Assembly: GCA_946185495.1 (NCBI GenBank)
Contig: CAMHJT010000008.1
Span: 1 to 35,915, forward strand
Direction of reading: 5' to 3'
DNA: 35,915 bases
Source of the DNA: an uncultured Clostridiaceae bacterium
GTDB taxonomy: Bacteria > Bacillota > Clostridia > Lachnospirales > Lachnospiraceae
A program made the translations under genes and the position numbers. This document shows positions 5,899 through 32,720 of this stretch, in pieces. Each line of letters starts with the position of its first letter. Position 1 is the first letter of the stretch. Below the pieces are notes generated by a model. The model saw only the letters and a program-made list of their open reading frames with translations. It was not told where the DNA came from and did no database searches.

Positions 5899-6019
5899 AT
5901 TCCCTCCATCCTCTCATGTCCCTCTGCCCACAGCGATCCCTCCACGCCTGTAACCCGGCAAAGAAAACAATTTTCAAACCGGCGTGTCTGCCCTGACGGG
6001 CTCCACGCTGACGTACAGC

Positions 6020-8164
6020 CTATTCCGTAAGCTGCCGGGCCGCCATCCGGGCAAACCGGCCGTTTTTCGCCATCAGCTCCTCATAGGTGCCCTCCTCGAC
6101 CACCCTGCCTCCATCCAGAAACAGGATCCTGTCACAGTCCCGGATCGTAGACAGCCTGTGGGCGATCACCAGCCTCGTACAGGAAAGCGCCTTCAGCGAC
6201 TGCACCACGATAGACTGCGTTTTGTTGTCCAACGCCGAGGTCGCTTCATCAAACAGCAGAATATCCGGATTCGCCGCAAGCGCCCTGGCAATCAGCAACC
6301 TCTGTTTCTGCCCGCCGGAAATGCCTCCGCCGTCCTCCGAGAGCATGGTGAACATTCCCATAGGCATTTTCTCAATATCCTCCTTAAGTCCCGCCCTTTC
6401 GACCGCATTCCAGGCCTCCTCCATCGTAAGCATCGGTGCGCAGATGGACAGGTTGGTGATAATGTCGCCGGAAAACAGGCTTCCGCTCTGCAGCACCACG
6501 CCGATCCTGCGCCGCAGGGAGCTTATGTCCATACGCGTGATATCCTTGCCGTCATAGTACACGGAACCGCTCTCCGCTGTCTCAAAGCCGAGCAGAAGGC
6601 GGAACAGGGTGGATTTGCCGCAGCCTGAATTGCCCACGACGCCCACATATTCCCCTTTGCGGATATGCAGGTTCATCCCGTTGATCACATAGGGCATATC
6701 GTCCCTGTACCGGAAATATACATTGCTGATCTCAATCTCGCCGCTGATCTGCCTAACCTCATCCCGGTCGCCGTAAATCTCAGGCCTGGCCTCCAGAATG
6801 GGTCTTAGCATCTCCGCGAACACACGCAGCGCGCCAAGCTGGAATCCCACCGCAGACAGGGACAGGATTGCCGCCTGAAAGGAGCCGAAAGCCGTCGTAA
6901 ACGCGATGAAATCAGATGCCGAAAGCCCGTTCTTCCAGGCAAGCTGATACAGCACGATGCTTCCCGCAAACGGAAGCATCGTACCCACCACGCCGGACAT
7001 CCTAAGTATATATCCCGGCATTACCGGCATATCCTTCCTTACCCTGGCCCAGCGCTGGTAAGCACGGATCTCCGCGCCGGCTGTCCGGATCTGCACGATA
7101 CCGCCGATCAGCTGGTACAGGATACTGGTACCCCTGCTGCACTCCTCAATGCATTTCCGGTTGTACTTGACCTGCAGTACGCCTGACAACAGCACATGGG
7201 CGAGCAGTATGCCGAGAATCGCAAGAGACGGCAGCACCAACGGCTTTGCAAACCATGAAAGCTGAAAGATATAAATAACAGACAGCAGCGTTCCCAACAG
7301 GGCAGGAATGAGCTGGCCGCCCACGATCTGGCAAATCTGTGTCACAGCGTTAGCTCTGTTGTAGATCTCACCCGCCTCATATTCTTTGAAAAATGTGACT
7401 GGAAGGGAAAACAGCCTGTTCCATATCGCGCTCTGCCCCTCCACCTGCATTTTCTGACCGATCCTCGCCACCGAAATATTTCTGGTCAGCCCGATCAGCG
7501 CCGTAAACAATGCCGAGCTGATCACCATGATCAGAATGCCCGGTATCATCCGGACCGTACCGGACGGGACCACCGAATTATACACCAGGCTGTTGATATA
7601 AGGCATCAGAAGCCCGCAGAATTCCAACAATACGCTGACCAGCAGGATCTGCCACAGATCCGCCATTTTGATCCTCCCCAGCAAAAAGCGCAAAAATCCG
7701 GAAAAATCCGCTGTATCCACCGGCAGGCACCTGTAAAAACAAAACGCGTCCTCCCCAATGGAGCGGGCCTCCTGTTTTTTGATCCTGACCGGCCTGCCGT
7801 TCTCCATCCTGACATAATATCCGGTCGCGTCCGGAAGCAGGATCTGCTCCTCCCCGTTTTCAAGGCTGACCAGAATGGGAAGGCCGGCCTGGCGCCACCA
7901 TTGTCCCTCAAGACGGATCTTCCTTATGAGCAGGCCGCCCTTTCTCAGAATATAGGACAATACCTTGTCCTCCGGCAGATGCTCAGGCAGTTCAAGATCC
8001 CTGATGCCGTAGTAGGCCAGCAGGTCATGATAGGTTCTGTAGGCCGCATCCTCCTGCCTGAATTCCTTCATCCCCATCTCATCAGCAATCCCCTGGTACA
8101 ATGACCCGACAGATTCCCTGAGCAGCTCCTGCTCCTTTTTTTTCTTTTCTAATATAGACTGCAT
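6020..8164 (-). CDS. NHLP/NHLM-type bacteriocin export ABC transporter, permease/ATPase without peptidase (ABC2 type)
   Basis: A 714-residue ABC half-transporter. About 150 soluble residues of unknown fold come first, then six predicted helices (about 160-430), then an ATPase domain with Walker A GNSGCGKST, signature SGGQKQR, Walker B ILLFDEATSALD and H-loop IAHRLST. The layout and length match the second ABC subunit of NHLM/NHLP (nitrile-hydratase-leader peptide) systems, which lacks the C39 domain and pairs with a peptidase-bearing partner. The neighbouring genes supply that partner and the HlyD adaptor, which supports the call. The ATG follows AGAGGTGG and lies 39 bp after the C39 exporter gene. 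Together the two ABC proteins probably form one inner-membrane peptide exporter. Confidence 0.9.
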   Translation of the reverse strand: MQSILEKKKKEQELLRESVGSLYQGIADEMGMKEFRQEDAAYRTYHDLLAYYGIRDLELPEHLPEDKVLSYILRKGGLLIRKIRLEGQWWRQAGLPILVSLENGEEQILLPDATGYYVRMENGRPVRIKKQEARSIGEDAFCFYRCLPVDTADFSGFLRFLLGRIKMADLWQILLVSVLLEFCGLLMPYINSLVYNSVVPSGTVRMIPGILIMVISSALFTALIGLTRNISVARIGQKMQVEGQSAIWNRLFSLPVTFFKEYEAGEIYNRANAVTQICQIVGGQLIPALLGTLLSVIYIFQLSWFAKPLVLPSLAILGILLAHVLLSGVLQVKYNRKCIEECSRGTSILYQLIGGIVQIRTAGAEIRAYQRWARVRKDMPVMPGYILRMSGVVGTMLPFAGSIVLYQLAWKNGLSASDFIAFTTAFGSFQAAILSLSAVGFQLGALRVFAEMLRPILEARPEIYGDRDEVRQISGEIEISNVYFRYRDDMPYVINGMNLHIRKGEYVGVVGNSGCGKSTLFRLLLGFETAESGSVYYDGKDITRMDISSLRRRIGVVLQSGSLFSGDIITNLSICAPMLTMEEAWNAVERAGLKEDIEKMPMGMFTMLSEDGGGISGGQKQRLLIARALAANPDILLFDEATSALDNKTQSIVVQSLKALSCTRLVIAHRLSTIRDCDRILFLDGGRVVEEGTYEELMAKNGRFARMAARQLTE

Positions 8165-8203: not shown

Positions 8204-10351
8204 TCAATCACTTCTGACCAGCGACGCGTAAGCCCCGTTCAACGCCATCAGTTCCTCATGGGTTCCCCGTTCGATGATCTCTCCGTCTCCGAGCATCAGG
8301 ATCTCATCCGCGTCCCGTATCGTAGACAGGCGGTGCGCCACAATAAAGCAGGTAACGCCACGCTTTCTCACGGCATCCATGACATTTTTCTCTGTCACGA
8401 CATCCAGAGCCGAGGTTGCCTCATCCATGATCAGCACAGAAGGAGACGACGCCAGCGCCCGTGCGATCTCAATCCTCTGCCTCTGTCCGCCGGAAAGATC
8501 TCCCCCGCCCTCGCTCAGCACATACTCATATCCTCCGGGGCGTTTCATGATCTCCTCATGAATTCCCGCATCCTTGCACGCATTGATCACTGTCTGCTCA
8601 TCAATCTCATCATTCCACATGGTAACGTTATCCCGGAAGGTTCCGGCAAACAGGGCAATATTCTGTTCCACCACCGCCACGGAATTCGTGAATACATAAT
8701 GATCGATCTCATCCCTGGGGATTCCGTCAAACAGCACCTGTCCGCCGCTTTCCCGATAAAGCCCGGACAAAAGCTTGGTAAAGGTTGACTTGCCGCTTCC
8801 GCTGGCACCCGTGATGGCAATAACCGATCCCGGTTTTGCGTGTACCGAAAAATGCTTCAGAAGCGGCGGCGTCACCGGGCTGTAGGAAAAACTGACATCC
8901 TCCACGTCTACCTTGCCCGTCAGGTGCTCCAGCTCCGGCTTTTCACCGCCGAACATCTGCTGCTCTGAAACAGCCTCTTCGTATTTCATGACATCCTGCA
9001 CCCGATCCACGCTGCCCGAAACCTCCTGCACCGCCTGCACGCAGGACACAAGGCTTTGCAGCGGTGAAAAGAAAATCTGGATAAAGGACTGGAACGCGAC
9101 CAGAAGCCCTACCGTGATCTCCCCGCGGAAAATCTGAAAGACCCCCATGATCAGCACAACCGCATTGCCAATTCCCTGGATCAGGCTGGAAAGCATGTCC
9201 GTATACATCCTTTTTTGCTGAAGCTCCGCCATGGAATTATTGTATTTCGTCTGGTATCCCAGAAGCTTCTCCACAAGCCCGTTCTCCGCCCCTGCCGACT
9301 TCACCGTCTCGATCATGGAAATGCCGGAAAGCATGGCGCCCGACAGCTTGCCCTGATCCCTCGCAATGCTCCTGGCTGCGTTTTCATCTCCGGCCATCAC
9401 CTTAAACAGCAGGGCAAACTCCAATACGCCGATCTCCGTCACCACAATGCCGATGGACGGCTTTAAGCAGATCAGAAGGACAGACAGGATGAACAGGAAC
9501 AGCCCCTCCATAAACGCGGGAATGATCTGTCCGAACAAAAGAGACGCGATATTCTCCTGATTATCCACTCTGGAGACGATATCACCGTCAAAGCGCTGCG
9601 CATAAAAGCTCGCAGGCAGCCGCAGGATCTTCCAGACCAGCTCCGAGGTGCGGCCGGTCACAAACCTGGCCCTCATGCGTGTCAGCAGAAGCGCCTGCAG
9701 ACAGCCGCACAAAAGACCCACCACAAACACAATATCCATCGCGGCGACCAGCGGCGCCATCCACTCCGACAGATGGCCCAGCAGCACCTTATCTGTAAAG
9801 ATCTTATAAAAGATCGGCGGCAAAATCCTGGCACAGCCGTACACCAGTCTGGACATGACCACCATATACACCGGCAGCTTCATGGAAGCCAGCACCTCTC
9901 CGAGATATCCGCCCGTACTGGAAGGCCTACCCTCCGGCACAAAGGATTCCCCCGGTGAAAAGGTCATGACAATCCCCGTAAAAGAAGTCTCAAAGGTATC
10001 CCAGTCCACCTTCACCCGGCCCTCCGCCGGATCATGCAGCACAGCAAAGCCCTTTTCAAATCCGGTCAGCACTACAAAATGGTTGAAATTCCAGTGAATG
10101 ACCATCGGAAAATCTTCCCTGTCCCGCAGCGCCTCCGCCTTCATTTTAAATCCCTTCGCGACAAGGCCGTGCTTTTTCGCGGCCAGCAGTATGTATTTTG
10201 CCGTACTTCCATCCCTTGTCACATTGCAGTCTACCCGCATCCGCTCCAGAGGGATATATCTTTGATAATATCCGAGGATCATTGCAAGGCTGGCAGCGCC
10301 GCACTCCACTGCCTCCATCTGCAATATCACCGGAATCTTGTTTTTCTTCAT
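8204..10351 (-). CDS. NHLP/NHLM-type peptidase (C39)/ABC peptide exporter (ABC1 type)
   Basis: A 715-residue bacteriocin exporter. The N-terminal C39 peptidase domain has its triad visible: Cys17 in EAVECGAASL, His91 in FNHFVVL and Asp107 in LHDPAEG. It should cut leaders after a double glycine. Helices at about 165-430 are followed by an ATPase with ITGASGSGKST, LSGGQRQR, VLIMDEATSALD and VAHRLST. Length and order match the peptidase-containing ABC subunit of NHLM/NHLP systems. The ATG at 10351 gives 7-nt spacing to AGAGG; an ATG at 10354 is possible, and the upstream TTG overlaps the HlyD gene and is unlikely. The gene follows the HlyD-like gene by 23 bp. No precursor peptide lies beside it; the double-glycine peptide at 23185-23328 is the only candidate cargo in the window. 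Confidence 0.93.
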   Translation of the reverse strand: MKKNKIPVILQMEAVECGAASLAMILGYYQRYIPLERMRVDCNVTRDGSTAKYILLAAKKHGLVAKGFKMKAEALRDREDFPMVIHWNFNHFVVLTGFEKGFAVLHDPAEGRVKVDWDTFETSFTGIVMTFSPGESFVPEGRPSSTGGYLGEVLASMKLPVYMVVMSRLVYGCARILPPIFYKIFTDKVLLGHLSEWMAPLVAAMDIVFVVGLLCGCLQALLLTRMRARFVTGRTSELVWKILRLPASFYAQRFDGDIVSRVDNQENIASLLFGQIIPAFMEGLFLFILSVLLICLKPSIGIVVTEIGVLEFALLFKVMAGDENAARSIARDQGKLSGAMLSGISMIETVKSAGAENGLVEKLLGYQTKYNNSMAELQQKRMYTDMLSSLIQGIGNAVVLIMGVFQIFRGEITVGLLVAFQSFIQIFFSPLQSLVSCVQAVQEVSGSVDRVQDVMKYEEAVSEQQMFGGEKPELEHLTGKVDVEDVSFSYSPVTPPLLKHFSVHAKPGSVIAITGASGSGKSTFTKLLSGLYRESGGQVLFDGIPRDEIDHYVFTNSVAVVEQNIALFAGTFRDNVTMWNDEIDEQTVINACKDAGIHEEIMKRPGGYEYVLSEGGGDLSGGQRQRIEIARALASSPSVLIMDEATSALDVVTEKNVMDAVRKRGVTCFIVAHRLSTIRDADEILMLGDGEIIERGTHEELMALNGAYASLVRSD

Positions 10352-10374
10352 CATCTTACCTCTTGCGTATCCTA

Positions 10375-11286
10375 TCAATCAGAAAACAGAAGCTCATATG
10401 GATGGTATTCCTTTTTGATGATCCTGACCGAACAGCGATCCCCTGATTTGACCTTCAGGGAGCTTCCTTTGGGATTCGACCACACATATCCGCCCGCCTC
10501 GTCGGCGGACACATCGAGCTGAACCACAATCTCCACGCAGTTGCCTGACTCCCGCAGGCCATCCACATAGTTCAGGGTTCCCATATGCTTTAAGATATAA
10601 TTATCCGAAATCAGGTAGGGAGAGATCGCCGAGATCACGCCCTCCATATATCCGTATTCCTCCCGCGAAACAAAGGATGGCGTGATCTGCGCCTCCATGC
10701 CCGGCTCAAACGCGCCGGCCTCCTCCTTGGGCATATAGAGAAAAACCTCATTATAGCTGCCAAAGCTCTCCGGCACCACCGTTGCCACTGTATCGCCGAC
10801 TGAGATGACCGTTCCCTTCATCTGCACGCTCTGTACCAGTCCCTCGATCTCGCTGCGCAGCACCATTCTTCCGTTCAGCGTGAGCAGCTCATTGGCGATC
10901 TCCCTGTATTTCTGCGAGGTGGCCTCATACTTTTCCTGCTCCTCCCGCAGCTCAGCGATCTGATCCATGATTTCCTTGTTATAGAGCGTTGCTATGATGT
11001 CTCCCTTGTTGACGTGATCCCCCTCCACAACCAGAATGTCATGAATGATGCAGTCAATCTTTGTATTGACGCATACCACGTCATCATGGCTGTAGATCAC
11101 TCCTGTATAATCCTCACCATAGGATATATTTCCAAAAATGACCCACAAAATAGCCGCAACCACGCCTACCATTACCGCGGCATACTGCGCCAGAATCGCG
11201 GGAGAGACCAGCTTGACCTGCTTGTCCAGCTTCTCCGGCGTGGACAGGCGCTCCATAGCCGACTCATTAAACAGATTTGACTTCAT
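10375..11286 (-). CDS. NHLP-type secretion adaptor, HlyD/membrane-fusion family
   Basis: A 303-residue periplasmic-adaptor-like protein. The N-terminal ERLSTPEKLDKQVKLVSP segment is typical of the NHLM/NHLP HlyD subfamily, followed by one membrane helix near residues 34-52. A split biotinyl-lipoyl-like hairpin follows (GVIYSHDDVVCVNTKIDCIIHDILVVEGDHVNKGDIIATL, then GLVQSVQMKGTVISVGDTVATVVP) around a short coiled coil (IAELREEQEKYEATSQKY). In Gram-positive cells such proteins couple the ABC exporter to the outside of the membrane. The start overlaps the stop of the binding-protein gene (ATGA), which indicates translational coupling, and the two ABC genes follow directly. Confidence 0.9.
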   Translation of the reverse strand: MKSNLFNESAMERLSTPEKLDKQVKLVSPAILAQYAAVMVGVVAAILWVIFGNISYGEDYTGVIYSHDDVVCVNTKIDCIIHDILVVEGDHVNKGDIIATLYNKEIMDQIAELREEQEKYEATSQKYREIANELLTLNGRMVLRSEIEGLVQSVQMKGTVISVGDTVATVVPESFGSYNEVFLYMPKEEAGAFEPGMEAQITPSFVSREEYGYMEGVISAISPYLISDNYILKHMGTLNYVDGLRESGNCVEIVVQLDVSADEAGGYVWSNPKGSSLKVKSGDRCSVRIIKKEYHPYELLFSD

Positions 11287-12437
11287 CTTGATCCCCCTCC
11301 GTTGTAAACCTTGAACTCGGAATTATGGCAGCGGAATACCGGACAGTCCTCTTCTATCAGGCGGCCGTTCTCATCAAACCGGAGCAGCCCTCCCACGCCA
11401 CGGTAGCCATGCTCTGACTTTAACTCCTCCATCAGCTGATACCCTGTGACTTTTCTGCCCTTACAGCACTCTGACAGCATCATGAAAAGGTCATAATACT
11501 GGATGGCTGTCGTCGTAAAGGATTCCTTGCTCCGCTCCTCATACCGCTTCTTAAAACGTTCCATCTCACTGTTTTGCGCGTAAGGATAATTCGGAATAAT
11601 ATACACGCCCTCCAGAAAGGAACCGTAATTCTTCAGCACGCCGGAATTATCCAGCACATAATCACCAACCCGCACAAGCCCCGGCATATTCTGCACCAGC
11701 TTCTTGAGCAGCCATTCACTGTCCTCCTGCGTATAGAAGTTCGCGACCACTGTGTCCACTCCCAGCAGCTTGTACTGTGTCAGCATATCGCCGAGCTCCG
11801 CGTCATTGAACGGGCCCGTCTCTGAATAGCAAACCCTGCAGTTCGGTGAATGATCCAGAACGGAAAGGATGCCCCGGATCGTATCGCGTTCAAACATCGT
11901 ATCGGAATGACACAGCGCGACATTTCTGGCGTTATTTTTAACCAGCAGCTCCCCGATCTTCTCTCCCATCACCCGCGCGCTCAGGAAATCAGCGATCAGG
12001 TAGTCATATTCCTGCTCCGCCACCTGGTCATAACAGCCCATGGTGACGATAAATGGTTTTCCGGCCTCCTCAAAATACGGCATCTCCGCATCGATGGAGT
12101 CAAAGTTCTGAAGCGAGATCACCACATCAACCGTAGGATCCTCCGCCAATTGCTTCGCGATAGATATTCCCTTCACATAACTTCCCTCATCCTCGATCAG
12201 CTCATAGGTGACCGGAAACCCGCCCTTCTCTCCGATATCCTCAAGCGCTGTCTGAATGCCCTGCTCAATTCCGGCCTCGGAATAATAAAACCCCTCGCTG
12301 TCCAGAATCACGACATGCAGGCTGTTATAATCAATCTTCCCGATCAGATGCTGCATATATAACACGATAAATGCAGCAAACAACAGCACTGCTAAAAAAA
12401 CGATCCCAATTCCAATTTTCAACCTCTTGTTTATCAC
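11283..12437 (-). CDS. Membrane-anchored periplasmic-binding-protein-like (type I fold) receptor
   Basis: A 384-residue protein with an N-terminal hydrophobic anchor (residues about 7-28). There is no lipobox cysteine, so it is probably an uncleaved anchor. The rest resembles the Peripla_BP_6/LIV-binding superfamily: VVILDSEGFYYSEAGIEQGI, DVVISLQNFDSI, KPFIVTMGCYDQ, NVALCHSDTMFERDTIRGI and GVDTVVANFY form the expected two-lobe alternation. No cognate small-molecule permease is nearby. It is instead coupled by an ATGA overlap to the NHLP secretion adaptor, which suggests an accessory or ligand-sensing role for the exporter. The start is GTG, 8 nt after GAGGAG. A short perfect palindrome lies just upstream. 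The ligand is unknown. Confidence 0.75.
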   Translation of the reverse strand: MINKRLKIGIGIVFLAVLLFAAFIVLYMQHLIGKIDYNSLHVVILDSEGFYYSEAGIEQGIQTALEDIGEKGGFPVTYELIEDEGSYVKGISIAKQLAEDPTVDVVISLQNFDSIDAEMPYFEEAGKPFIVTMGCYDQVAEQEYDYLIADFLSARVMGEKIGELLVKNNARNVALCHSDTMFERDTIRGILSVLDHSPNCRVCYSETGPFNDAELGDMLTQYKLLGVDTVVANFYTQEDSEWLLKKLVQNMPGLVRVGDYVLDNSGVLKNYGSFLEGVYIIPNYPYAQNSEMERFKKRYEERSKESFTTTAIQYYDLFMMLSECCKGRKVTGYQLMEELKSEHGYRGVGGLLRFDENGRLIEEDCPVFRCHNSEFKVYNGGGSR

Positions 12438-12522: not shown

Positions 12523-14202
12523 TCACAGCTTCAGGCGTATCTTCCTGGTCCTTTTGATCCGGCTGCCTCCCCGCTTCCATTCCAGGCGGAGCACCGCCTT
12601 CCCGCTCTGGAATTTTTTCGCCTTCAGCTTTCTCCAGGTTACCTCCGCCCTGCTGCCCTTTACAGACAGCCTGCAAGCGCGGGTCCGTTTTTTCCCCTTC
12701 CCGTATGCCTGCGTAAGCGTCACCTTGAGTTTTCCCTTTTCCGGCACCTTCTTAATGACAACGGCCAGCTTCTTCTTTCCGGAGCTCACCCTTCCGAAAC
12801 AGAGGGCTTCCTCCGTTTTTTGCTCCGTTGTCACAGCCGCGTCCGGTCTCTCCTCCGTCGCTGCGCCCGTGCCCGTCTTTTGCTCCGTTGTCGCGTCCGC
12901 GCCCGGTCTCTCCTCCGTCGCTGCGCCCGTGCCCGTCTTTTGCTCCGTTGTCGCGTCCGCGTCCGGTCTCTCCTCCGTCGCTGCGTCCGCACCCGTCTTT
13001 TGCTCCGTTGTCGCGTCCGCACCCGTTTTTTGCTCCGTTGTCACAGCCGCGCCCGGCATCGGCTCCTCCGCCCCGGACAGCTCATTTAAAATTCCTTCCA
13101 TCGTGAGAGCAGGATAGGCAAACTCCCTGCCCGCGCAGTAAAACTCCGTCTTCTGTGTCATGGTGGCAAGAAACCGGTCTGTCAGTTCAGGAGCCTCCAT
13201 CTCTTCACCAAGACATCCCATATACACCGCCACCGCGGCAGATACCAGAGCCGTCGCGTAAGAGGTTCCCTTCACGGTCGTGTACCGGTTTCCCTTAGAT
13301 ACAGTATACAGCATTTCTCCCGGCGCAACAATATCGTATTTTCTTTCCCCGTCCTGTTCCTGATCCCAGTTTGTAAACTCTGCCAGGCCTCCGCCAACAC
13401 TGCCCGCCATCACGCCGATGCAGCAGTCCCAGGCAGCGGGATAGGCGTCCATGCAGGTATAACCCATGTCCCTGACCTCCTGCCGGCTGAGTTTTCCCTG
13501 CGTGACAAAGCCCTCGTTTCCGGCTGCCGCCACCATCACGCAGCTTTTGGCAGCTTCCCTCACCGCCTCTTCCAAAAGGTCCGAGGGATCGTAGGTGGCA
13601 AAGGACATGTTGATCACGTCCGCTCCCATTTTCACGGCGTACCTGATCCCCTCAACCACAGAATCCGTATCATAGTTCGTATCCTGGCTGACCTTGATCG
13701 GCATGATCCTCGCCCCGTACGCAAGCCCGGCTCCGCCGCCGTCCCCCGGCTGCATGCCGATGAGCCCGGCTATCTCCGTGCCATGCCCCACGCTGTCTGT
13801 CTGATATGCGTACCGGTTTGCCAGATTCAGCCCGTAGACATCGTCCACATAACCATTCCCGTCATCATCCACGCCGTCTTTCCCGTTCAGTTCCGCCTCA
13901 TTGCACCACCTTGCGTCATTAAGGCAGGTCGCGGAAGAGGCCAGCCCGGTATCGATCACCGCGATCACGATCCCCTCCCCGGGCTGCCTGCCCTCCGCCT
14001 CCAGCTTCTCCCAGACAGGCCGTATTCCAACCTTGTCCAAATACCAGCTCGACGAGATTCCGGGATCCGCCTCCTCAGACGGCAGCGCCTGTGTCTGCAT
14101 ACGCCCCCTGCCATCCAGCGCCGCAGCAGAAGCACCATCTTCAGTTGTAAACAATATGCCACACAGCATGACCGGCAGCAACCATTTCCATCTCAACCGC
14201 AT
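12523..14202 (-). CDS. Secreted S8 (subtilisin-like) serine protease with Thr/Glu repeat linker
   Basis: A 559-residue secreted protease. A signal peptide (RLRWKWLLPVMLCGILF, cleavage near ASA) precedes an S8 domain with Asp84 (VIAVIDTGL), His140 (GHGTEIAGLIG), the oxyanion Asn in AAAGNEG and Ser314 (KGTSYATALVSA). A Ca-binding-like DGVDDDGNGYVDD loop is present. Eight decapeptide repeats form a linker (about 387-466) before a very basic C-terminal domain of about 90 residues that may bind the cell wall. The ATG at 14202 was chosen. The longer frame begins with GTG at 14253, has no ribosome binding site and would leave only about 15 nt after the predicted transcription start. The gene heads the NHLP operon and shares its promoter type with the giant surface protein, so it may mature or shed exported or surface products. 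Confidence 0.88.
   Translation of the reverse strand: MRLRWKWLLPVMLCGILFTTEDGASAAALDGRGRMQTQALPSEEADPGISSSWYLDKVGIRPVWEKLEAEGRQPGEGIVIAVIDTGLASSATCLNDARWCNEAELNGKDGVDDDGNGYVDDVYGLNLANRYAYQTDSVGHGTEIAGLIGMQPGDGGGAGLAYGARIMPIKVSQDTNYDTDSVVEGIRYAVKMGADVINMSFATYDPSDLLEEAVREAAKSCVMVAAAGNEGFVTQGKLSRQEVRDMGYTCMDAYPAAWDCCIGVMAGSVGGGLAEFTNWDQEQDGERKYDIVAPGEMLYTVSKGNRYTTVKGTSYATALVSAAVAVYMGCLGEEMEAPELTDRFLATMTQKTEFYCAGREFAYPALTMEGILNELSGAEEPMPGAAVTTEQKTGADATTEQKTGADAATEERPDADATTEQKTGTGAATEERPGADATTEQKTGTGAATEERPDAAVTTEQKTEEALCFGRVSSGKKKLAVVIKKVPEKGKLKVTLTQAYGKGKKRTRACRLSVKGSRAEVTWRKLKAKKFQSGKAVLRLEWKRGGSRIKRTRKIRLKL
12805..13044 (-). repeat. Eight 30-bp (paired as 60-bp) coding repeats in the S8 protease linker
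   Basis: Eight consecutive 10-residue units alternate between types like ATTEQKTGAD and AATEERPDAD. In DNA the paired units form nearly perfect 60-bp tandem repeats between 12841 and 13020. Being multiples of three, gain or loss of units would keep the frame and change linker length. Confidence 0.95.
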
Positions 14203-14277
14203 TTGCTTCAAAGCCTTCCCTTTTTCAGCCCACCGGTTTTTATCCGGTTTCACATAAAAAAAAATAATCCACTATCC

Positions 14278-14338
14278 ATTATAATGCATAACACGCCTCG
14301 CCGTCCAGCATTTTACACCAAAATACATACACTTGACG
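14278..14338 (-). promoter_or_regulatory. Activator-type promoter of the S8/NHLP operon with shared 31-bp element
   Basis: The minus-strand -10 box TATAAT is at 14278-14283. A 31-bp element occupies 14308-14338 (plus-strand start GCATTTTACACCAAAA, end TTGACG) and lies exactly 24 bp from the -10 box. The hexamer 17 bp upstream of the -10 (GGACGG) is not a -35 box, so an activator is probably needed. The same element at the same spacing lies before the giant surface-protein gene at 31640-31700. Confidence 0.8.
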
Positions 14339-16223: not shown

Positions 16224-17003
16224 TCAAGAAGCTCTTTCTCTTCTCCGCCTGACATAATACCCCCACGCCGCCGCAATGACCAGCAAAACGCTTGTGATCT
16301 GGATGGCCGTCATCCCCAGGTACATCACGGTTCCCCGCTTATCCATCATGCACTCCGAGATCAGGATGCACAGGCCAAAGGCAGCCATAGACGGATAAAA
16401 TATATGCTTTCCCTTCCAATACGCGACGCACAGGCCCACGAACAGAATCAGCATCAAAGCCGCCTCGAAAAGCTGGGATGGAAATACGGAATATGTTATC
16501 TCATTTTTCGGAAACCTTACGGATAACGGCCCGCTCATCGGGATTCCATAACAGCAGCCCTCCATGAAACAGCCGATCCGGTTAAATACATGCTGAATCG
16601 GAAAAAAGAACGCCATGATGTCCAGCATTTTATCCGCATCCGCCTGATAGACCCACCGGTACAGACAAGGCAGCAGGCAGGCCGACGCGAAGACTATGCC
16701 GATAAAATGGCTTCCTCCTACCTCCCTGATCAGGGAAAGCTCTGCCGTCAGGCTCTCCGCAAACGAAAAAGTGAGCCCCCTGACCACCATGGCAAGCGCG
16801 TTGCCGATCGTGCCCACGACCAGCAGCTCCAGAAGAACCGGCAGCGCCACCAGCTTCATCACGCCTCCCCGGTTCTCCGGATGATTCCGGTATGCCCTGT
16901 AATACATCACAAGTAAAAACACGATTGCGATCGCGCTTCCCAAATTAATAAATAAATCCCTGCTGTTGATGGTGTGTTCTCCCACAAACAATACCGGACA
17001 CAT
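16224..17003 (-). CDS. Divergent prolipoprotein diacylglyceryl transferase (Lgt) family membrane protein
   Basis: A 259-residue integral membrane protein with about seven hydrophobic segments. The central motif NRIGCFMEGCCYGIP corresponds to the Lgt signature (usually GRIGNFxNGExxGxxT). Here it carries the cysteine-rich GCFxxGCCYG variant seen in a subgroup of Lgt-like proteins. GGSHFIGIVFAS may correspond to the conserved histidine region. Canonical Lgt transfers diacylglycerol from phosphatidylglycerol to lipobox cysteines; whether this variant does so is uncertain. The ATG is 8 nt after GGAGG. It lies 22 bp after the NRPS stop and before a strong terminator, so it belongs to that operon and may act on its product or on a partner, rather than being the housekeeping Lgt. 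Confidence 0.75.
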   Translation of the reverse strand: MCPVLFVGEHTINSRDLFINLGSAIAIVFLLVMYYRAYRNHPENRGGVMKLVALPVLLELLVVGTIGNALAMVVRGLTFSFAESLTAELSLIREVGGSHFIGIVFASACLLPCLYRWVYQADADKMLDIMAFFFPIQHVFNRIGCFMEGCCYGIPMSGPLSVRFPKNEITYSVFPSQLFEAALMLILFVGLCVAYWKGKHIFYPSMAAFGLCILISECMMDKRGTVMYLGMTAIQITSVLLVIAAAWGYYVRRRRERAS

Positions 17004-17025: not shown

Positions 17026-20000
17026 CTAGTATGTTATTATCCGATCGGCCGCCACCTGTTCCGCGATCTCTCCCGCATGGGAATGCAGACAGAAATGATA
17101 TGCCCCGCCAAGCCCGGTCACGCTGACAGGCCCTGCCAGATAGCGGTTCCACAGCGCGTATTTGCGCTGAAATCCAGCCGTCAGCACATCCCTGTCCCCG
17201 AAAAACAGATGTGTCTCCACCTTTACCGGCGGCTTTGGATGATCCGTCATCCACTGCACATATTTTCTCGCGTCCGTCCGGAGCCGGCACCGCATTTCCT
17301 CTGTGAGCCGAAGCCGTCGCCCCTGCAGCGCGCTCAGGCACAGGTTTGCAGCCGGACCCGGAATCAGATCCCACAAAAGCTTCCTCCGGTCTGCCGCTCC
17401 CAAAAAGGAAACCGGCAGGCTGCCGATCAGCGCAAGCCGTACCCGTCCCTCCCATTTCCGGTTCAAGCGTTCCACCAGCGAAATGGCCAGGGCAGAGCCT
17501 ACACAGCAGCCGATGACCACAATCTCATCCTCTTTCTCCGGCAGCGCCTCCAATTCCGCGAAAATGCGTCCCGACATACAGGAAACACTATCCCGCCTTC
17601 CACTCACGTCACAGGCCAGCAGCTCGTAGCCCCTGTCCCAAAAAGCATCTGCCAGCAAAGAAAAGCAATGGATCCCCATCCCCGCGTAAGGCACAGCCAA
17701 CACAAAGCCCCGCCTCCGGCTGCGCGGCACAGGATCCGTCAGGCGGCACAGCAGCTTCCGCTGCGCCGTGCGAACACGCGGCTTCTCTCTTTCAGGGCGA
17801 ACGCCCTCACGCTTCCCTGCCAGAATGCCAGCCAGCTCCCTGACTGTCTCTGCTCCGGCAATGTCCTCATAATCCGCCTTGACCCCCTGCTTTTCCAGGG
17901 CAAGCATCCACTCGACAATGGAAATGGAATCCAGGCCGCACTCCCTGAGGCTCTGATCCGGTCCTGCAGGCGCCATCCGGCCCAGCACCTTGCGCGCCGT
18001 GCCCCACAGGATCTGCTCCAGCCTGTCCCCTTCAACGCCATTTCTATTCATTCCGGTTTTGTGTCCATTTATTCCTCCTTCGCATCCATTCATGCCGTTT
18101 TTACGCCTGTTCGTTCCTGCTTTGCATCCACTTATCCCACTTTTGCATCCATTCACACCGTTTTTACGCCTGTTCGTTCCTGTTTTGCGTCCGTTTATTC
18201 CACTTTTACATCCATTCACGCCGTTTTTATACCTGTTCGTTCCTGCTTTGCGTCCATTTATTCCTCTTTCGCATCCATTCATGCCGTTTTTACATCTGTT
18301 CATTCCGGTTTCACATCCACTCGTTCCCATGTGTTGTGTGGAAAGCAGCGCGTAATCACATTTTCCATTCCTGTTATATGGAAGCTGCGCCAGGCACTGG
18401 ATCACATCCGGCATATAATGCGGAGCCACCCTCTTTGCCAGCTGTGTCCTGACTTCAGCAGAAGACATTGCCGTCTCCGCAAACAGGATCAGGCGATTGT
18501 CCGAAACCAATGCCGCCGCTCCCCCTATACCGGAAATCATTGAGGTTTCCTGCTCCAGCACAGAAAGGCTGACCCGCATTCCCCGCAGCTTCACTTCCCG
18601 GTCAATCCGGCCCGCATACACCAGCTCGCCCGCATCGGAATAATACCCGAGATCACCGGTGTGGTAGGCTCTCCTTCCATTCCACTCCACAAAACGCGCC
18701 GCTGTCTCCTCCGGATTGTTCACATATCCCTCTCCGACCAGCGTCCCGGTCACCAGGATCTCTCCGATATAACCCTGCGGCAGCTCACGCCCTTTCGGGT
18801 TCACCACATGAAGCCCGGTGCCCCATACCGGCTTTCCGACAGGCACAACCCTCTCTCCCCTGCTGCAGGCATGCCATGACACGTCAATCGTGCACTCGGC
18901 AGGCCCGTACAGGTTGTAGAGCTTTGTAAATGGAAACAACGTGTAAAAACGGTCCACCATGGCAGGCGTAAGTGCCTCCCCGCTGGAAAATACCCGTTTG
19001 ACCGCAGTTTTCTCCTTCTTTCCAGACTGCTCCGCCCATGACAGGTACACTGAAAGCATGGATGGCACAAAATGCAGGGTATCCACCTGATACCGCTTTG
19101 CAACCTGCCGGATCTTTTCCGGCTCCCGCTCCCAGCCATCCGGCAGCATCACCAGCGATCCCCCGCAGGCAGCAGACAGCAGCAGTTCCCAGACCGATAC
19201 GTCAAAGGTATTTCTGGTCTTCTGTAAAATCCGGCATCCGGAAAGTCCGAAATGTTCTTTCATCCATGCAAGGCGGAGGTTCAGAGCATCACGGTACAAT
19301 CTGACCAGCTTCGGCTTCCCGGTGCTGCCGGAGGTGTGAATCCCGTAAGCGACCTGACGTCCATACGCGCTGACAGGGGCATATGCCCCGCATGCGTTCT
19401 GGCTGCCGGGTTTCCCCCGGCTTGCCACAGTATTACCGCCGAGGGCAGACGCAGCCCAGTCATCCGTCAGAATCACGTCAAGCTGCTCTGACAGGGCGGT
19501 CAGCCGCTCGCAGGTCTCTCCAAGAGCAACCGGAACAAAAATGGTTCCGGTCTTCAGGCATGCCATCATGACAAGCGGCATCAGCATGGTTCTGGAAAGC
19601 CGGAGCCCTGCCATCAGGGGTTGCGGCTGTTTTTCCATTCCCTGTCCGCCACCGTCCCTCTTCAGGTGTTGTTCCCGCAGCAAAACCAGCCTGTCAGCGA
19701 TCCTGTCCACAAGCATTCCCGCCTCCCGGTAGCTGACTGTTCTTCCGTGATCTGTCACATCAATGATGTATGCCTGATTCCCGTGTTCGCGCACATTTCT
19801 GTCGAAGGCAGCCGCCACATCCTCCACTTCCAGGCCTGCCTTGTCCGCATTGCTGCCAAAACAGCCTCCATCCGGCGCCTGCGCATCACAGGACATGGTG
19901 CTGCCTGCCGGGCGATGATTTCCGTCCTCTTGCAGCCCCTCCCGGATCACTTCAAAAAGCGAACGGTCCAGCTCCTCAATCTCCCTTCTGGAATACCGGT

Positions 20001-21240
20001 CTGACATATACTTATAGGTCAGGCAAATGCCGTCCGCCTGCTCGTCGATCAGAAACCGCAGCGGCACCTCCACCGCGCTGCACTCCGTCTCCCACATAAA
20101 ATCAGCGTGCTGCAGCGGAAGCCGCTTGAGCGGGCGGTAGGTGACACAGGTGTCATACAGCCTGCCTGTCAGGCGGTTTTCCGACCTCAGCTCACGCACT
20201 GTGTAATCCCCGCATTTGAGCATCAGGTATTCCTGCCTCTTGATCTCGCCGCAAAGCTCCGGAAATGTTTTTTCCTCCGAAACCTGTACGACCAGGGGCA
20301 GCACATTGGTAAACATGCCCGCCGTATCCATATATTTCTTTTTCCGGTTAATCATTACCCTGCCAAGGCTCGCCCATTCCGCGCCGGTGATCCTGCTGTC
20401 ATGAATAGCCAGCGCCGCCTCAAAGACATGCTCTGCCGTCAGTCCATTGCCGTCACACCATGCAGATATCTGTCCGCATACTTCCCGCTCCACTTTCTTC
20501 TGAAATACCTCCGCCCTCTCGGAGGTACTCTCCCGCCGGTCCGGAAACACAAAATGCTCCTGCGCACACAAACTTTTGTAAGCCTCCGGAACCGGCTTCG
20601 CCGTCCTTGCCTCCATCTCCTCCAGATATGCCAGAAATCGGCCATCCGGCAAAACGTCACGCCACAGCGGGCTGTCAGACCGCATTCCAAGCTCCCAAAG
20701 CTCCCTTGTCACCTTCATCAGGCCGATCCCGTCACAGATCAGATGATGGTAGATACCTGCCAGATACAGGTATTCCTCCGTTTCTATCACGAGATAACGC
20801 ACCAGACAGGCATCATAGGCAAACACCGGAATATCGGACCATTCCCCGATCCGCCGCCTGACCTTTTCCTCCGTCTCTCCCCTGCCGTCAACCACATCAA
20901 AGAAAACCGCGCACTCCTCAGACAGGTACAGCCTTCCCTGCCGGCTCACCCTGAGCCTGAGCGCAGGATTCAGCTCCTGCACCCTGCAGGCCGTCTCATA
21001 GATGCGCCGCGCGCACATTTCCTCCTCCGCATTCCGCGCAGTATTCCCGGCATAGCGTGCCTGCCCGTCAGCATCCGCCATCCCGCCCTCTTCCGCAGGG
21101 CCATCCACACAGCCTTTCCCTGCCTGCGCCAACGGAAAGCGGATCACTCCGCCGATATTTCCCAGGCACGAGCCCGGATACCGCCTGACCATGTCATAAA
21201 TATTCTGCTGCTGGGGCGTCATTCCATACTCTCTCGTCAT
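17026..21240 (-). CDS. EntF-like nonribosomal peptide synthetase: condensation-adenylation-carrier-thioesterase
   Basis: A 1404-residue NRPS. The condensation domain (about 1-440) has an intact HHxxxDG motif (His165, His166, Asp170). The adenylation domain (about 477-960) carries HTSGSTGKPK, NLYGPAECT, YHTGDLG and NGKCDY. Reading its pocket against GrsA by eye gives D-V-W-H-F-S-L-I-D-K, essentially the serine code of EntF. A heptapeptide-repeat linker (978-1066) precedes the carrier domain (phosphopantetheine Ser1105 in GLDSIS) and a thioesterase (about 1160-1404). The thioesterase nucleophile motif is GCCVG, so Cys1246 stands where serine is usual; likely partners are the Asp of FFGDRD and the His of GGAYHF. 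The ATG at 21240 follows AGAGGGATGG; the longer frame begins with an unsupported GTG. No PPTase or MbtH gene is visible. The product is probably a small serine-containing acyl or peptide compound. Confidence 0.9.
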   Translation of the reverse strand: MTREYGMTPQQQNIYDMVRRYPGSCLGNIGGVIRFPLAQAGKGCVDGPAEEGGMADADGQARYAGNTARNAEEEMCARRIYETACRVQELNPALRLRVSRQGRLYLSEECAVFFDVVDGRGETEEKVRRRIGEWSDIPVFAYDACLVRYLVIETEEYLYLAGIYHHLICDGIGLMKVTRELWELGMRSDSPLWRDVLPDGRFLAYLEEMEARTAKPVPEAYKSLCAQEHFVFPDRRESTSERAEVFQKKVEREVCGQISAWCDGNGLTAEHVFEAALAIHDSRITGAEWASLGRVMINRKKKYMDTAGMFTNVLPLVVQVSEEKTFPELCGEIKRQEYLMLKCGDYTVRELRSENRLTGRLYDTCVTYRPLKRLPLQHADFMWETECSAVEVPLRFLIDEQADGICLTYKYMSDRYSRREIEELDRSLFEVIREGLQEDGNHRPAGSTMSCDAQAPDGGCFGSNADKAGLEVEDVAAAFDRNVREHGNQAYIIDVTDHGRTVSYREAGMLVDRIADRLVLLREQHLKRDGGGQGMEKQPQPLMAGLRLSRTMLMPLVMMACLKTGTIFVPVALGETCERLTALSEQLDVILTDDWAASALGGNTVASRGKPGSQNACGAYAPVSAYGRQVAYGIHTSGSTGKPKLVRLYRDALNLRLAWMKEHFGLSGCRILQKTRNTFDVSVWELLLSAACGGSLVMLPDGWEREPEKIRQVAKRYQVDTLHFVPSMLSVYLSWAEQSGKKEKTAVKRVFSSGEALTPAMVDRFYTLFPFTKLYNLYGPAECTIDVSWHACSRGERVVPVGKPVWGTGLHVVNPKGRELPQGYIGEILVTGTLVGEGYVNNPEETAARFVEWNGRRAYHTGDLGYYSDAGELVYAGRIDREVKLRGMRVSLSVLEQETSMISGIGGAAALVSDNRLILFAETAMSSAEVRTQLAKRVAPHYMPDVIQCLAQLPYNRNGKCDYALLSTQHMGTSGCETGMNRCKNGMNGCERGINGRKAGTNRYKNGVNGCKSGINGRKTGTNRRKNGVNGCKSGISGCKAGTNRRKNGMNGCEGGINGHKTGMNRNGVEGDRLEQILWGTARKVLGRMAPAGPDQSLRECGLDSISIVEWMLALEKQGVKADYEDIAGAETVRELAGILAGKREGVRPEREKPRVRTAQRKLLCRLTDPVPRSRRRGFVLAVPYAGMGIHCFSLLADAFWDRGYELLACDVSGRRDSVSCMSGRIFAELEALPEKEDEIVVIGCCVGSALAISLVERLNRKWEGRVRLALIGSLPVSFLGAADRRKLLWDLIPGPAANLCLSALQGRRLRLTEEMRCRLRTDARKYVQWMTDHPKPPVKVETHLFFGDRDVLTAGFQRKYALWNRYLAGPVSVTGLGGAYHFCLHSHAGEIAEQVAADRIITY
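18043..18309 (-). repeat. 21-bp tandem coding repeats (heptapeptide linker) inside the NRPS
   Basis: Twelve full heptapeptides plus a partial thirteenth, of the type xG(M/V/I/T)N(G/R)xK: TGMNRCK, NGMNGCE, RGINGRK, AGTNRYK and so on. A higher-order 21-residue (63-bp) period is visible. The block joins the adenylation and carrier domains, is basic and contains several cysteines. It looks like a minisatellite that keeps the reading frame. Confidence 0.95.
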
Positions 21241-21297
21241 TTTCCATCCCTCTAGTACATGATTCACAAAATCGCAATCCCAATGGCGTTCCTATCC

Positions 21298-22968
21298 TCA
21301 ATCCTCCATCAGATGCCAATCATCATCCGTTTCGTCATAATAGTAAATCTGATCCTCTTCCTCATCGTAATAGCACATGGTATCGGTCTCCTCATCATAC
21401 AGATACAGGACATCATCCTCGTATAGATACCAGATTTCCTCCTCGTAATCGTAGATCCAGTCGTCCGACTGCTCGTCCTCATACCCGTAATAATCACCGG
21501 TATCATAATCATAAGCGTATTCACAGGAGCCGTCCCCGCTTGTATTACAGCCGTACTCATCCTCATAATCTCCCCAGCCCCCCCAGAGATCATCAAAGAA
21601 GCTGAAATCGAAAAAGTCATCGCTGTCTTCAGACACAAATCCACCGAGCCACTCAATATACTCCTTGTCCAGGCCAATTCCCTTGTACACCTTTTTCAAA
21701 CGGTCATAGAATTCGGAATCCCCATAGGGCAGGGACACCGCAAGCCCTGTCAGCTCGTTTTTATCCGAGGTGTGTCCGTAATACGCCACCGCCGCCTTCA
21801 GCGCGGAGGTCAGGCTCTTCGCCTCATCGCTCTTGTTGTCAATGCTCTCCACCAGGGCAAGAATATCGCTGATATAATAATCCGACAGCGTCACATCGCT
21901 GTCATCCAGCCCCCACAGGTCCCAGAAGCCCTTGTTCTTCCGCCCTCTGGCTTTATGCATCCTGCTGTAATTTTTGTTAAGCAGGCTGCTCTCGTTCTTA
22001 TACGCAAACGCCTTCCACGCCTTGAACAGATTTTTTGCCGTAGACTCGTTAAACAGACCGACACAGGCGGAATCTCCCTCCGAGCTGGTCTCATTATCCT
22101 CAATGATGGCATCCACAACGCGCTTGCCCAGAAGGGGCGTGGATATGCCTGGATTCTTTTCAAAATCCCTCATCCATGCCGTATAGTTCCAGCCAAGTCC
22201 CGACTCAAAATCCTCCGAGAGCAGGGTGTATTTACAAAAGGGAGCCAGCGCGTAACAGGTCTCTAAATTGGCCATGATGCAGCAGTCCATCCCGATGATG
22301 TCAAAACGGATGTCCTTATGCTCCGAAAACGCCTTCACCATTTCCGCAATCGTCAGGCTCTGCTGTTCATCCTGCCACTCGTCATACCCGAAGCCGTACA
22401 CCGGACCGCCGCCATGATTCCAGAAAATAAACATGTATCTGTCCGCCGGAAAATCAGATTTACAGTATCCGATAAATTCCGACAGGGTATCTGCCGAGGT
22501 ACAGTCGAGCTGCCCGAGCTTATCCCTCACCAGTGAAAGCTTTCCATCCTGAATCCTGTAGGTCTGGGAGGTCTTGGCGGAAATGCCGTAGTCCTGCCAT
22601 TTTTTTGTTCCCATAGTCTGAATCACCACATTGACGTTGCCGCCGATTCCGGAATCAAGCATCTCAGCGATATCCCTCGTCGCCTCTCCCGCCTTCGTCT
22701 CCAGGTCGGAACCGTTCATATAGATCATGATGGTAGCAGATTTCGCGTCTGTTCCAACTGACGCCGTCTCCACGGCAGCGACAGTTTTTGAAGACGTGCT
22801 TTCCGGTTTATGTACGGACATCTCCTGGCGATCCGATTCCTCCGGCATATCCTCCTCATCATCCGGAATGAGCAGAATGATAATAAACAACGCCAGCACA
22901 ACCGCAACAATTCCGATCAGGCAGCTATTCAGCCTGACGGTTTTCCTCTTCTCAGTTTTTTTCTCCAC
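21298..22968 (-). CDS. Membrane-anchored clostripain-like (C11) cysteine protease with acidic Tyr-rich tail
   Basis: A 556-residue protein. One N-terminal helix (LIGIVAVVLALFIIILLI) follows a basic stretch, so the rest should lie outside the membrane. The C11 core has TIMIYMNGSDLE, DVNVVIQTMG-type strands, catalytic His185 (FWNHGGG) and Cys230 (GMDCCIMANLE). These proteases cut after arginine or lysine in characterised members. The last 90 or so residues are very rich in Asp, Glu and Tyr, with periodic YLYEDD/YYDEE motifs. The GTG at 22968 is preferred because AAGGAG lies 7 nt upstream; the ATG at 23022 overlaps the predicted -10 box. It is the first gene of an apparent operon with the NRPS (57-bp gap) and the Lgt-like gene. 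Its link to peptide synthesis is unexplained. Confidence 0.85.
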   Translation of the reverse strand: MEKKTEKRKTVRLNSCLIGIVAVVLALFIIILLIPDDEEDMPEESDRQEMSVHKPESTSSKTVAAVETASVGTDAKSATIMIYMNGSDLETKAGEATRDIAEMLDSGIGGNVNVVIQTMGTKKWQDYGISAKTSQTYRIQDGKLSLVRDKLGQLDCTSADTLSEFIGYCKSDFPADRYMFIFWNHGGGPVYGFGYDEWQDEQQSLTIAEMVKAFSEHKDIRFDIIGMDCCIMANLETCYALAPFCKYTLLSEDFESGLGWNYTAWMRDFEKNPGISTPLLGKRVVDAIIEDNETSSEGDSACVGLFNESTAKNLFKAWKAFAYKNESSLLNKNYSRMHKARGRKNKGFWDLWGLDDSDVTLSDYYISDILALVESIDNKSDEAKSLTSALKAAVAYYGHTSDKNELTGLAVSLPYGDSEFYDRLKKVYKGIGLDKEYIEWLGGFVSEDSDDFFDFSFFDDLWGGWGDYEDEYGCNTSGDGSCEYAYDYDTGDYYGYEDEQSDDWIYDYEEEIWYLYEDDVLYLYDEETDTMCYYDEEEDQIYYYDETDDDWHLMED

Positions 22969-23020
22969 GGTTTTTCTCCTTCTCTTTTCCACATTTCTGT
23001 AAATCAGTATCACTTTGCTC

Positions 23021-23049
23021 ATTTTATCACAGTTTCATTTTTCAGACAA
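23021..23049 (-). promoter_or_regulatory. Promoter of the clostripain-NRPS-Lgt operon
   Basis: On the minus strand TTGTCT (23044-23049), a 17-bp spacer and TAAAAT (23021-23026). The predicted start site supports the GTG start at 22968. It lies directly after the terminator of the double-glycine peptide gene. Confidence 0.6.
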
Positions 23050-23184: not shown

Positions 23185-23328
23185 TTAGAATCTGTTCGCC
23201 ACGTCGTCCGTGATATCCTTTGTCTTCTGTTTCTTCACATTTGCCAGAGAGCCGCCACTCACCTCATCCAGATCATCAAGGTCAAGTTCTACAGCCTCTT
23301 CCGCCTCTTTCTGCTTGTTCTCCTCCAT
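23185..23328 (-). CDS. Double-glycine leader peptide (bacteriocin/pheromone-like precursor)
   Basis: A 47-residue peptide. The leader ends ELDLDDLDEVSGG (residues 14-26), a typical ELxxV-GG processing site for C39 peptidase exporters. The remaining 21 residues, beginning SLANVKK and ending DDVANRF, contain no cysteine and only one serine and two threonines. They therefore offer few sites for lanthionine or thiazole chemistry. The core mixes a basic first half with an acidic second half. The ATG at 23328 has a near-perfect AAGGAGGTGA site 5 nt upstream, while a longer frame to 23388 has none. It lies 190 bp downstream of the giant surface-protein gene and just before a strong terminator, so it is probably on the giant gene's transcript. 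The C39 exporter at 8204-10351 is the only processing exporter in the window. Confidence 0.8.
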   Translation of the reverse strand: MEENKQKEAEEAVELDLDDLDEVSGGSLANVKKQKTKDITDDVANRF

Positions 23329-31594: not shown

Positions 31595-31639
31595 GTCCAT
31601 TTCCTCCTTTTTGTTTTTTTGGACTTCTAACCATATTCC

Positions 31640-31700
31640 ATTATAATACAAATCACCCCCGTTGGATTTGCATTTTACACCAAAACCCATACATTTGACG
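31640..31700 (-). promoter_or_regulatory. Activator-type promoter of the giant surface-protein gene with shared 31-bp element
   Basis: The minus-strand TATAAT is at 31640-31645, and the 31-bp element at 31670-31700 is exactly 24 bp upstream of it. The element differs from the copy at 14308-14338 at only three positions. There is no -35 box (AATCCA at the expected place). The remaining intergenic stretch 31701-31886 shows no gene. Confidence 0.8.
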
Positions 31701-31886: not shown

Positions 31887-31915
31887 TTGCCTTCTATTTG
31901 AAATTCTGCTATAAT
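31887..31915 (+). promoter_or_regulatory. Sigma-A-type promoter of the LytTR/GHKL operon
   Basis: TTGCCT (31887-31892), a 17-bp spacer and TATAAT (31910-31915), about 70 nt upstream of the AGGAGG site and ATG of the regulator. It does not contain the shared 31-bp element, so the regulator is probably made constitutively. Confidence 0.7.
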
Positions 31916-31991: not shown

Positions 31992-32720
31992 ATGAAATTA
32001 ACCATAGCGGTCTGTGATGACAACCGGACTGAACGGGAACAGCTTAACCGTCTGCTGGATGACTGCCTGTACCCCCTGCAGGTTTCCTTCCGCATTGAAG
32101 CCTTTCAGGACAGCAGCTCTTATCTGGAGGCCTGTGACAACACCATATTTGACATTACCTTCATGGATGTCTATATGAATGATTTAGACGGCATCGAGAC
32201 TGTCCGGCTTGCCCGCGGCAAGGGACAGCGCCAGTTTGTGTTTACGACCACGAGCCGTGACCACGCCATCGAGGCCTTTTCGCTGGACGCCGCGCATTAC
32301 CTTCTGAAGCCGCTCACCGTGGAAGCGGTCGGAGAAGCGCTCAGCCGATGCCTGAAGCGCGCAAGCGAAAAAACCACCTCTTACCTGAATGTCAAGTCCC
32401 AGCAGGGACAGGTTCCGGTTCCCACAGACAATATCATCTATATCGAAGTGCACAACAAGCTGAGCGTGATCCATACCGGCAAAAACGAGTTTTCCACCTA
32501 TTCCTCGCTTGATACGCTGTATGAACTGCTGAATGAGGAGGAATTCATGCGGGCACAGCGAAGCTTCATCGTCAATATGAACTATATCGAGGCCTTTCAT
32601 TACGACCATATCCTATTAAAGGGTGGAAAAGAGATCGTGCTGTCCAGAAACAAGCGCGCGGAGCTCAAAAGCAAATATCAGCATTTCTTATTTCAGATGG
32701 CAAGGAGGGGCGCGCTATGA
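31992..32720 (+). CDS. LytTR-family response regulator (AgrA/VirR type)
   Basis: A 242-residue DNA-binding response regulator. The receiver domain (1 to about 120) has the acidic pocket in AVCDDN, phospho-acceptor Asp59 in FMDVYMNDLDG, and Lys106 in YLLKPL. The LytTR domain (about 140-238) has NIIYIEVHNKLSVIHT, FMRAQRSFIVNMNYIEAF and IVLSRNKRAELKSKY. Such regulators bind direct repeats just upstream of -35-less promoters and respond to AgrC-like kinases. The ATG at 31992 follows AGGAGG by 9 nt; a longer in-frame start at 31914 overlaps the -10 box. It overlaps the kinase gene by 4 bp (ATGA). Its divergent position makes it the likely activator of the giant surface-protein gene and, through the shared element, of the S8/NHLP operon. 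Confidence 0.93.
   Translation: MKLTIAVCDDNRTEREQLNRLLDDCLYPLQVSFRIEAFQDSSSYLEACDNTIFDITFMDVYMNDLDGIETVRLARGKGQRQFVFTTTSRDHAIEAFSLDAAHYLLKPLTVEAVGEALSRCLKRASEKTTSYLNVKSQQGQVPVPTDNIIYIEVHNKLSVIHTGKNEFSTYSSLDTLYELLNEEEFMRAQRSFIVNMNYIEAFHYDHILLKGGKEIVLSRNKRAELKSKYQHFLFQMARRGAL

Follow-up and report, generated by a model that had tools for sequence, protein, structure and literature searches.

Regulatory systems of the LytTR type are described as carrying 9-12-9 repeats upstream of their promoters, with low conservation of the repeat letters (PMC6193735). For PlnC/PlnD of Lactobacillus plantarum, the cited report places 9-12-9 repeats immediately before the -35 (PMC2714321). SilA sites are given a 10-11-10 geometry (PMC2766830), and the gallocin regulators BlpR/BlpS of Streptococcus gallolyticus are described with a 30-bp motif confined to their own regulon (PMC8545106).

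The locus described here lies in a stretch of 35,915 nucleotides (the window), in which two promoters 17 kb apart carry a common 31-bp element. One promoter precedes genes for an S8 protease and an exporter, the other the gene of a giant surface protein. Judging from sequence, we propose with a probability of about 0.7 that a LytTR two-component system co-activates the surface protein, peptide and exporter genes via this element.

The window resembles PlnC/PlnD, as described, in its 9-bp tandem repeats with 12-bp spacer close before the promoter (directly upstream of -35/-10 in PlnC/PlnD) and in having several promoters per regulon, a putative one in the window. It differs in that the box is TACGTTAAT there and CGTCAARTG/TGTAAAATG in the window, and in that one of the window targets is a giant surface protein. 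By eye, the published TACGTTAAT box is matched only in part (5/7 for CGTCAAR in shifted register, 4/7 for TGTAAAA), which counts against the LytTR reading. HdrR/BrsR sites are likewise reported as 9-12-9 repeats just upstream of promoters with weakly conserved box letters; unlike in the window, the regulator is there described as paired with an inhibitory membrane protein (PMC6193735). According to the same source, the repeats lie 4-11 bp from the -35 in S. mutans and mostly 10 bp elsewhere, as compared with 1-2 bp from the nominal -35 in the window, where the proximal half-site is 25 bp from TATAAT; this difference, too, is a point against the LytTR reading.

The gallocin system shares with the window a kinase/regulator pair and a LytTR site found only before operons of its own regulon, close to the promoter and in gallocin just upstream of the -35; unlike in the window, it controls bacteriocin genes, and activation by a secreted peptide is shown there (PMC8545106). 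At agr P2/P3, AgrA is described to use LytTR direct repeats located ahead of promoters whose -35/-10 spacing is poor, a similar situation, with the promoter-proximal repeats centred at about -60 as compared with about -52 for the window site (PMC4227749). The locus was not named in a literature search made without the peptide or the element as query, and we do not claim it as unpublished.

Two promoters with a common element

An earlier note on this DNA had claimed that the two promoters share a 31-bp element at the same distance from TATAAT. Direct comparison bears this out. Positions 14308-14338 and 31670-31700 are identical at 28/31 positions, and exactly 24 bp separate the element from TATAAT in both cases. 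Both promoters are located on the minus strand (Table 1), where they read CGTCAAGTGTATGTATTTTGGTGTAAAATGC-N24-TATAATGGA (S8/exporter) and CGTCAAATGTATGGGTTTTGGTGTAAAATGC-N24-TATAATGGA (giant gene). The bases directly after TATAAT, also claimed to be alike, are GGA in both. The supposed absence of a -35 is borne out at the giant gene, where no hexamer at spacers 15-19 exceeds 2/6; the S8 promoter has a poor one, TGGACG (4/6, spacer 18).

The window has 20 TATAAT sites; when their upstream 31-mers were compared in all 190 pairs, this pair reached 28/31 and the runner-up 15/31. A 29-bp core with up to three mismatches matches the own genome twice, at both window copies, and its reversed control not at all; a 79-bp sequence model returns the same two matches at E<=10. 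Likeness by chance and without function has, on these counts, a negligible probability. Random occurrence throughout the genome, which according to the earlier note would speak against the element, was looked for, and only the two copies were found. The absence of a third copy, first noted for the window, thus extends to the own genome (2.91 Mb, 257 contigs, 92% complete, so a copy could be missed).

Parts of the element taken alone are not special: its first 16 bases have six matches at up to two mismatches (two of them exact) versus three for the control, and the 13-mer TTTTGGTGTAAAA has four at up to one mismatch versus 13. The exact core together with TATAAT was found in 0/59 relatives. 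A regulon search with the sequence model in the 298 other sampled genomes of the family gave a best E of 0.0018 and background only; at E<=0.1, matches occur in 28/298 of them, about chance level.

The element consists of two 9-bp direct repeats, CGTCAARTG-N12-TGTAAAATG, at a step of 21. This agrees with the structure expected of LytTR-regulated promoters, two direct repeats of about 9 bp with a spacer of 11-13 bp. When the element was slid along itself at steps 9-22, step 21, which was tried with LytTR geometry already in mind, scored best (13/18 paired matches over both copies), followed by step 14 (11/18). Column shuffling gave P of 0.003 for step 21 and 0.009 for steps 20-22, values that speak for the LytTR reading, with the reservation that they are moderate. 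With 8-mer scoring, one copy peaks at step 21 alone (7/8); in the other, step 4 ties with step 21 (6/8), which counts against the repeat reading. The GTGTA half-site at a 14-bp step, favoured earlier, is present in one copy and is outscored by step 21, and we have replaced it by CGTCAARTG/TGTAAAATG. A possible third half-site, another 22 bp along (GTGTTATG/GTGATTTG), was rejected as too weak (pair scores 15.75 and 13.79).

A second block of likeness, GTGnTnTGYATTATAATGGA, spans the -10 and is common to both promoters. The 10 bases between the two blocks match at 1/10, and the flanks outside them are dissimilar. Could the likeness stem from recent copying of a promoter stretch of about 75 bp, that is from common descent with no specific activator site? 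It does run through the -10, and the 12-bp spacer between the half-sites is identical at 10/12 positions across copies, a point for copying rather than for selection acting on the half-sites alone. Two kept blocks around 10 mostly unlike bases, with unlike outer flanks, are nevertheless expected if functional blocks were kept, and copying is compatible with function. A similar site before the peptide gene of a relative (G161, see below) also argues for an activator site, so that we regard copying as the sole source of the likeness as improbable.

Table 1. Features of the two promoters, the genes behind them and the proposed regulatory pair, in window coordinates
Feature	Position	Strand	Remark
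Distal half-site CGTCAAGTG, S8/exporter promoter	14330..14338	-	
Proximal half-site TGTAAAATG, S8/exporter promoter	14309..14317	-	
-10 TATAAT, S8/exporter promoter	14278..14283	-	N25 from proximal half-site; putative start ~14271
Distal half-site CGTCAAATG, giant-gene promoter	31692..31700	-	
Proximal half-site TGTAAAATG, giant-gene promoter	31671..31679	-	
-10 TATAAT, giant-gene promoter	31640..31645	-	N25 from proximal half-site; putative start ~31633
LytTR response regulator (receiver + LytTR), proposed activator	31992..32717	+	Pfam LytTR 1.5e-19, Response_reg 1.8e-12
GHKL histidine kinase, proposed partner	32717..34102	+	Pfam HATPase_c_5 1.8e-13
Giant surface protein (Calx-beta, BspA-type LRR)	23519..31600	-	
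Double-glycine-leader peptide MEENKQKEAEEAVELDLDDLDEVSGGSLANVKKQKTKDITDDVANRF, candidate exporter cargo	23185..23328	-	ribosome site AAGGAGGTGA
Clostripain-family (C11) protease	21298..23022	-	
Single-module NRPS-like protein (C-A-PCP)	17026..21267	-	
Lgt-family protein	16224..17003	-	
S8 protease, first gene behind S8/exporter promoter	12523..14253	-	start codon probably ATG near 14202
Periplasmic-binding-protein-like protein	11283..12437	-	
HlyD-type subunit, NHLP-type exporter	10375..11286	-	TIGR03794 158.6 bits (cut-off 156.2)
C39 peptidase/permease/ATPase exporter (NHLP ABC1-like)	8204..10378	-	TIGR03796 831 bits, below cut-off 853; Peptidase_C39 3.1e-33
Second exporter permease/ATPase (NHLP ABC2-like)	6020..8164	-	TIGR03797 673 bits, below cut-off 709

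The regulator and its relatives

A LytTR regulator, as expected near LytTR-regulated promoters, is present in the window: its gene and that of a GHKL kinase are divergent from the giant gene and adjoin one copy of the element. The regulator has FMRAQRS where the motif of the LytTR family is quoted as FhRhHRS (PMC4227749). Its own likely promoter (31887-31915, +) reads TTGCCT-N17-TATAAT with TG before the -10; by eye, the twin repeat is absent there.

The own genome contains 11 matches to this regulator, itself included, so another LytTR protein could bind the element. A non-LytTR factor might do so as well, for example on the GTGTA repeat, whose step 14 stands at 11/18 versus 13/18 for step 21. 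Against a different regulator of either kind speaks the position of the window regulator, which adjoins one target and keeps its synteny with giant-gene homologs. Such a regulator is, in our view, unlikely.

No regulator ortholog was seen in 25 other genomes of the genus (best-scoring match 28%, highest identity 34% among the matches listed). Among the 298 other sampled family genomes, four contain matches at E<=1e-38. The two best homologs (45% in genome G161, 41% in G334) are both divergent from giant-gene homologs and adjoin them; no such homolog was found in the vicinity of the other two (36%). A regulator search over named genomes by six short peptide patterns gave 46 loci, none of them like G161 or G334, with identities that did not exceed 32% over near full length or 39% over short pieces.

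Giant-gene homologs (E<=1e-30) occur in 7/298 other sampled family genomes and in G003, which is of the same genus. A divergent LytTR gene is found at four of the six giant loci with enough upstream DNA (window, G003, G161 and G334), the contigs of G101, G281 and G288 ending too soon to be counted. It was not found at the giant loci of G206 and G078, which counts against the LytTR reading. Gene synteny is kept in two other genera. The kinase beside the giant gene of G334 is 35% identical to that of the window over 452 aligned positions. The G161 regulator is followed by an S8 gene with no kinase directly after it; this counts against the LytTR/kinase reading and suggests that the sensing arm may vary.

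In G003, the gene divergent from the giant gene (L084:8247-9107, -) encodes a different LytTR protein with no receiver match in Pfam. An initial by-eye reading of it as a non-regulator was discarded because Pfam gives a LytTR domain. The N-terminal part of the protein is NTF2/SnoaL-like, by eye only.

Promoter regions of relatives were scanned with a half-site matrix built from the window's own four half-sites only. The matrix was run on 11 regions; it recovers both window sites by construction, and the informative regions are the nine from relatives. Only one of these nine has a good site, and it belongs to G161, the genome with the closest regulator homolog. The candidate site precedes the peptide gene and reads CGTGAAAAG-N11-CGTAAAATG-N25-TAAAAT (0/400 shuffles). 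Its pair score alone has P of 0.001, or about 0.01 after counting nine tests. The distance from half-site to -10 equals the N25 of the window, although any value from 23 to 27 would have been accepted. Another half-site with top score, TGTAAAATG, is located 150 bp further up.

The matrix finds no site in the other eight regions, G334 and G003 included (P 0.12 to 0.96). The result for G334, which has the second-best regulator homolog (P 0.17), counts against the LytTR reading. In 190 loci (1.38 Mb, with overlapping loci included and element-bearing loci left out), 15 pairs reach a score of 18.9 or more when 32 steps are taken together, which is about 0.5 for each step; they include the G161 site and one in G298. 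The latter (L203:6557, score 21.24) falls within a reading frame of 599 aa and was counted as chance. Elsewhere on the same G298 locus (L203:10240-10290), a distant regulator homolog has as its divergent neighbour a repeat-rich, surface-like frame of 1346 aa, and the gap between them holds CGGCTTAGG/CGGCTTACG at step 20.

The G003 promoter has GTCATATAA-N12-GTCATACAC, followed after 10 bp by TTGATT-N17-TATAGT. This fits the LytTR rule, and an arrangement of this type arises in 7.4% of 1000 shuffles; as a LytTR site, the promoter is suggestive only. The same rule applied to G161 and G334 gave no site.

The arrangement of genes differs among relatives. In G161, the giant gene and a 449-aa frame are followed on one strand by genes for PBP, HlyD and both exporter proteins, the two exporters being 61% and 57% identical to those of the window. 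In G003, an Lgt-family domain and the S8 protease are fused in one frame of 837 aa (L082:6091-8604, +), which are separate genes in the window. There is thus no separate S8 promoter in G003, and the window S8 promoter may be secondary, a point in favour of promoter copying. GGDEF, NRPS-like and SpoIIE-type genes lie between S8 and exporter in G003, so gene order is not fixed; this counts against co-regulation by LytTR.

The proposed switch and its peptide

According to our main reading, the 31-bp element would be a site for an activator of the LytTR (AgrA/ComE) type, with half-sites separated by two turns of the DNA and its centre about 52 bp ahead of the putative start. The GHKL kinase would phosphorylate the LytTR regulator, which would occupy one face of the DNA as a pair, recruiting RNA polymerase to a TATAAT promoter with poor or missing -35. 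Switched on in this way would be the giant surface protein and the double-glycine peptide, probably with the following genes, and at the other promoter the S8 protease and C39 exporter genes. Genes that share a strand in G161 would be reunited into a regulon by the pair of promoters. In the simplest history, the genes would have been separated, the promoter module copied and the parts kept in step; we infer that copying followed the separation. Binding, activation, operon extents and the kinase's signal are each putative.

The earlier proposal named a shared activator site and, as candidate activator, the LytTR regulator encoded beside one copy. It gains support from the 9-12-9 repeat, from an element found at no further place in the genome sequence and from the conserved neighbourhood; its GTGTA half-sites were given up. 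With the switch, an uncharacterised LytTR regulator would have a DNA site defined to the letter, and an exporter would be tied by regulation to its probable cargo peptide as well as to a giant surface protein whose gene lies 17 kb off.

Two genes separate Lgt from S8 in the window, one of cytidine-deaminase type and one that matches bPH_3 weakly. By eye, degenerate tandem peptide repeats are seen in the S8 protein (ATTEQKTGAD-like) and in the NRPS-like protein (NGMNGCK-like).

The peptide gene is unlisted among the reading frames of the window. It is flanked by the genes of the giant protein and the C11 protease, has a strong ribosome site and encodes 47 aa with a double-glycine leader (MEENKQKEAEEAVELDLDDLDEVSGG / SLANVKKQKTKDITDDVANRF). 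Exporters with a C39 peptidase are the sort that cuts and exports double-glycine peptides, and the small peptide may be cargo of the C39 exporter of the window. A C39 peptidase exporter and a GG leader are also described for C39/PCAT systems (PMC6363468, PMC12184118); unlike there, the window peptide has no match in Pfam, NCBIfam or PHROGs. In three relatives, the peptides weakly match leader models of bacteriocins or RiPPs, with no score reaching the cut-off.

Peptide homologs adjoin giant-gene homologs in G003, G161, G288, G334 and G078 (two copies), and K-x-x-T-x-x-I after GG is present in 7/7 aligned rows of the family. When 299 sampled genomes of the family were searched (own genome included, G003 not), the peptide family was found at E<1e-19 in five, all among the eight with a giant gene; a weak match (3.7e-5) occurs in G178. 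No peptide match was found in G101, G206 and G281, which have the giant gene. With a family that is short and conserved after GG, and a window member without library match, the switch could serve as a handle on what is secreted from such loci and at what time.

Features typical of ComCDE/Blp/Pln-kind systems are found together in the window. A GG-leader peptide gene lies behind the giant gene and a C39 exporter behind the S8 promoter, each on the same strand with putative co-transcription, and GHKL kinase and LytTR regulator are both present. It is possible, if rather doubtful, that an undescribed autoinduction circuit is made up of the GG peptide, the C39 exporter, the GHKL kinase and the LytTR regulator. 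In bacteria that are presumably Clostridia-like, such a circuit would drive the giant surface protein, the protease set and the single-module NRPS, its promoter module having been copied after gene separation so that cargo and exporter share a switch. In G078, two near-identical double-glycine peptide genes are arranged in tandem before the giant gene (L195:5275-5433 and 5904-6062, +).
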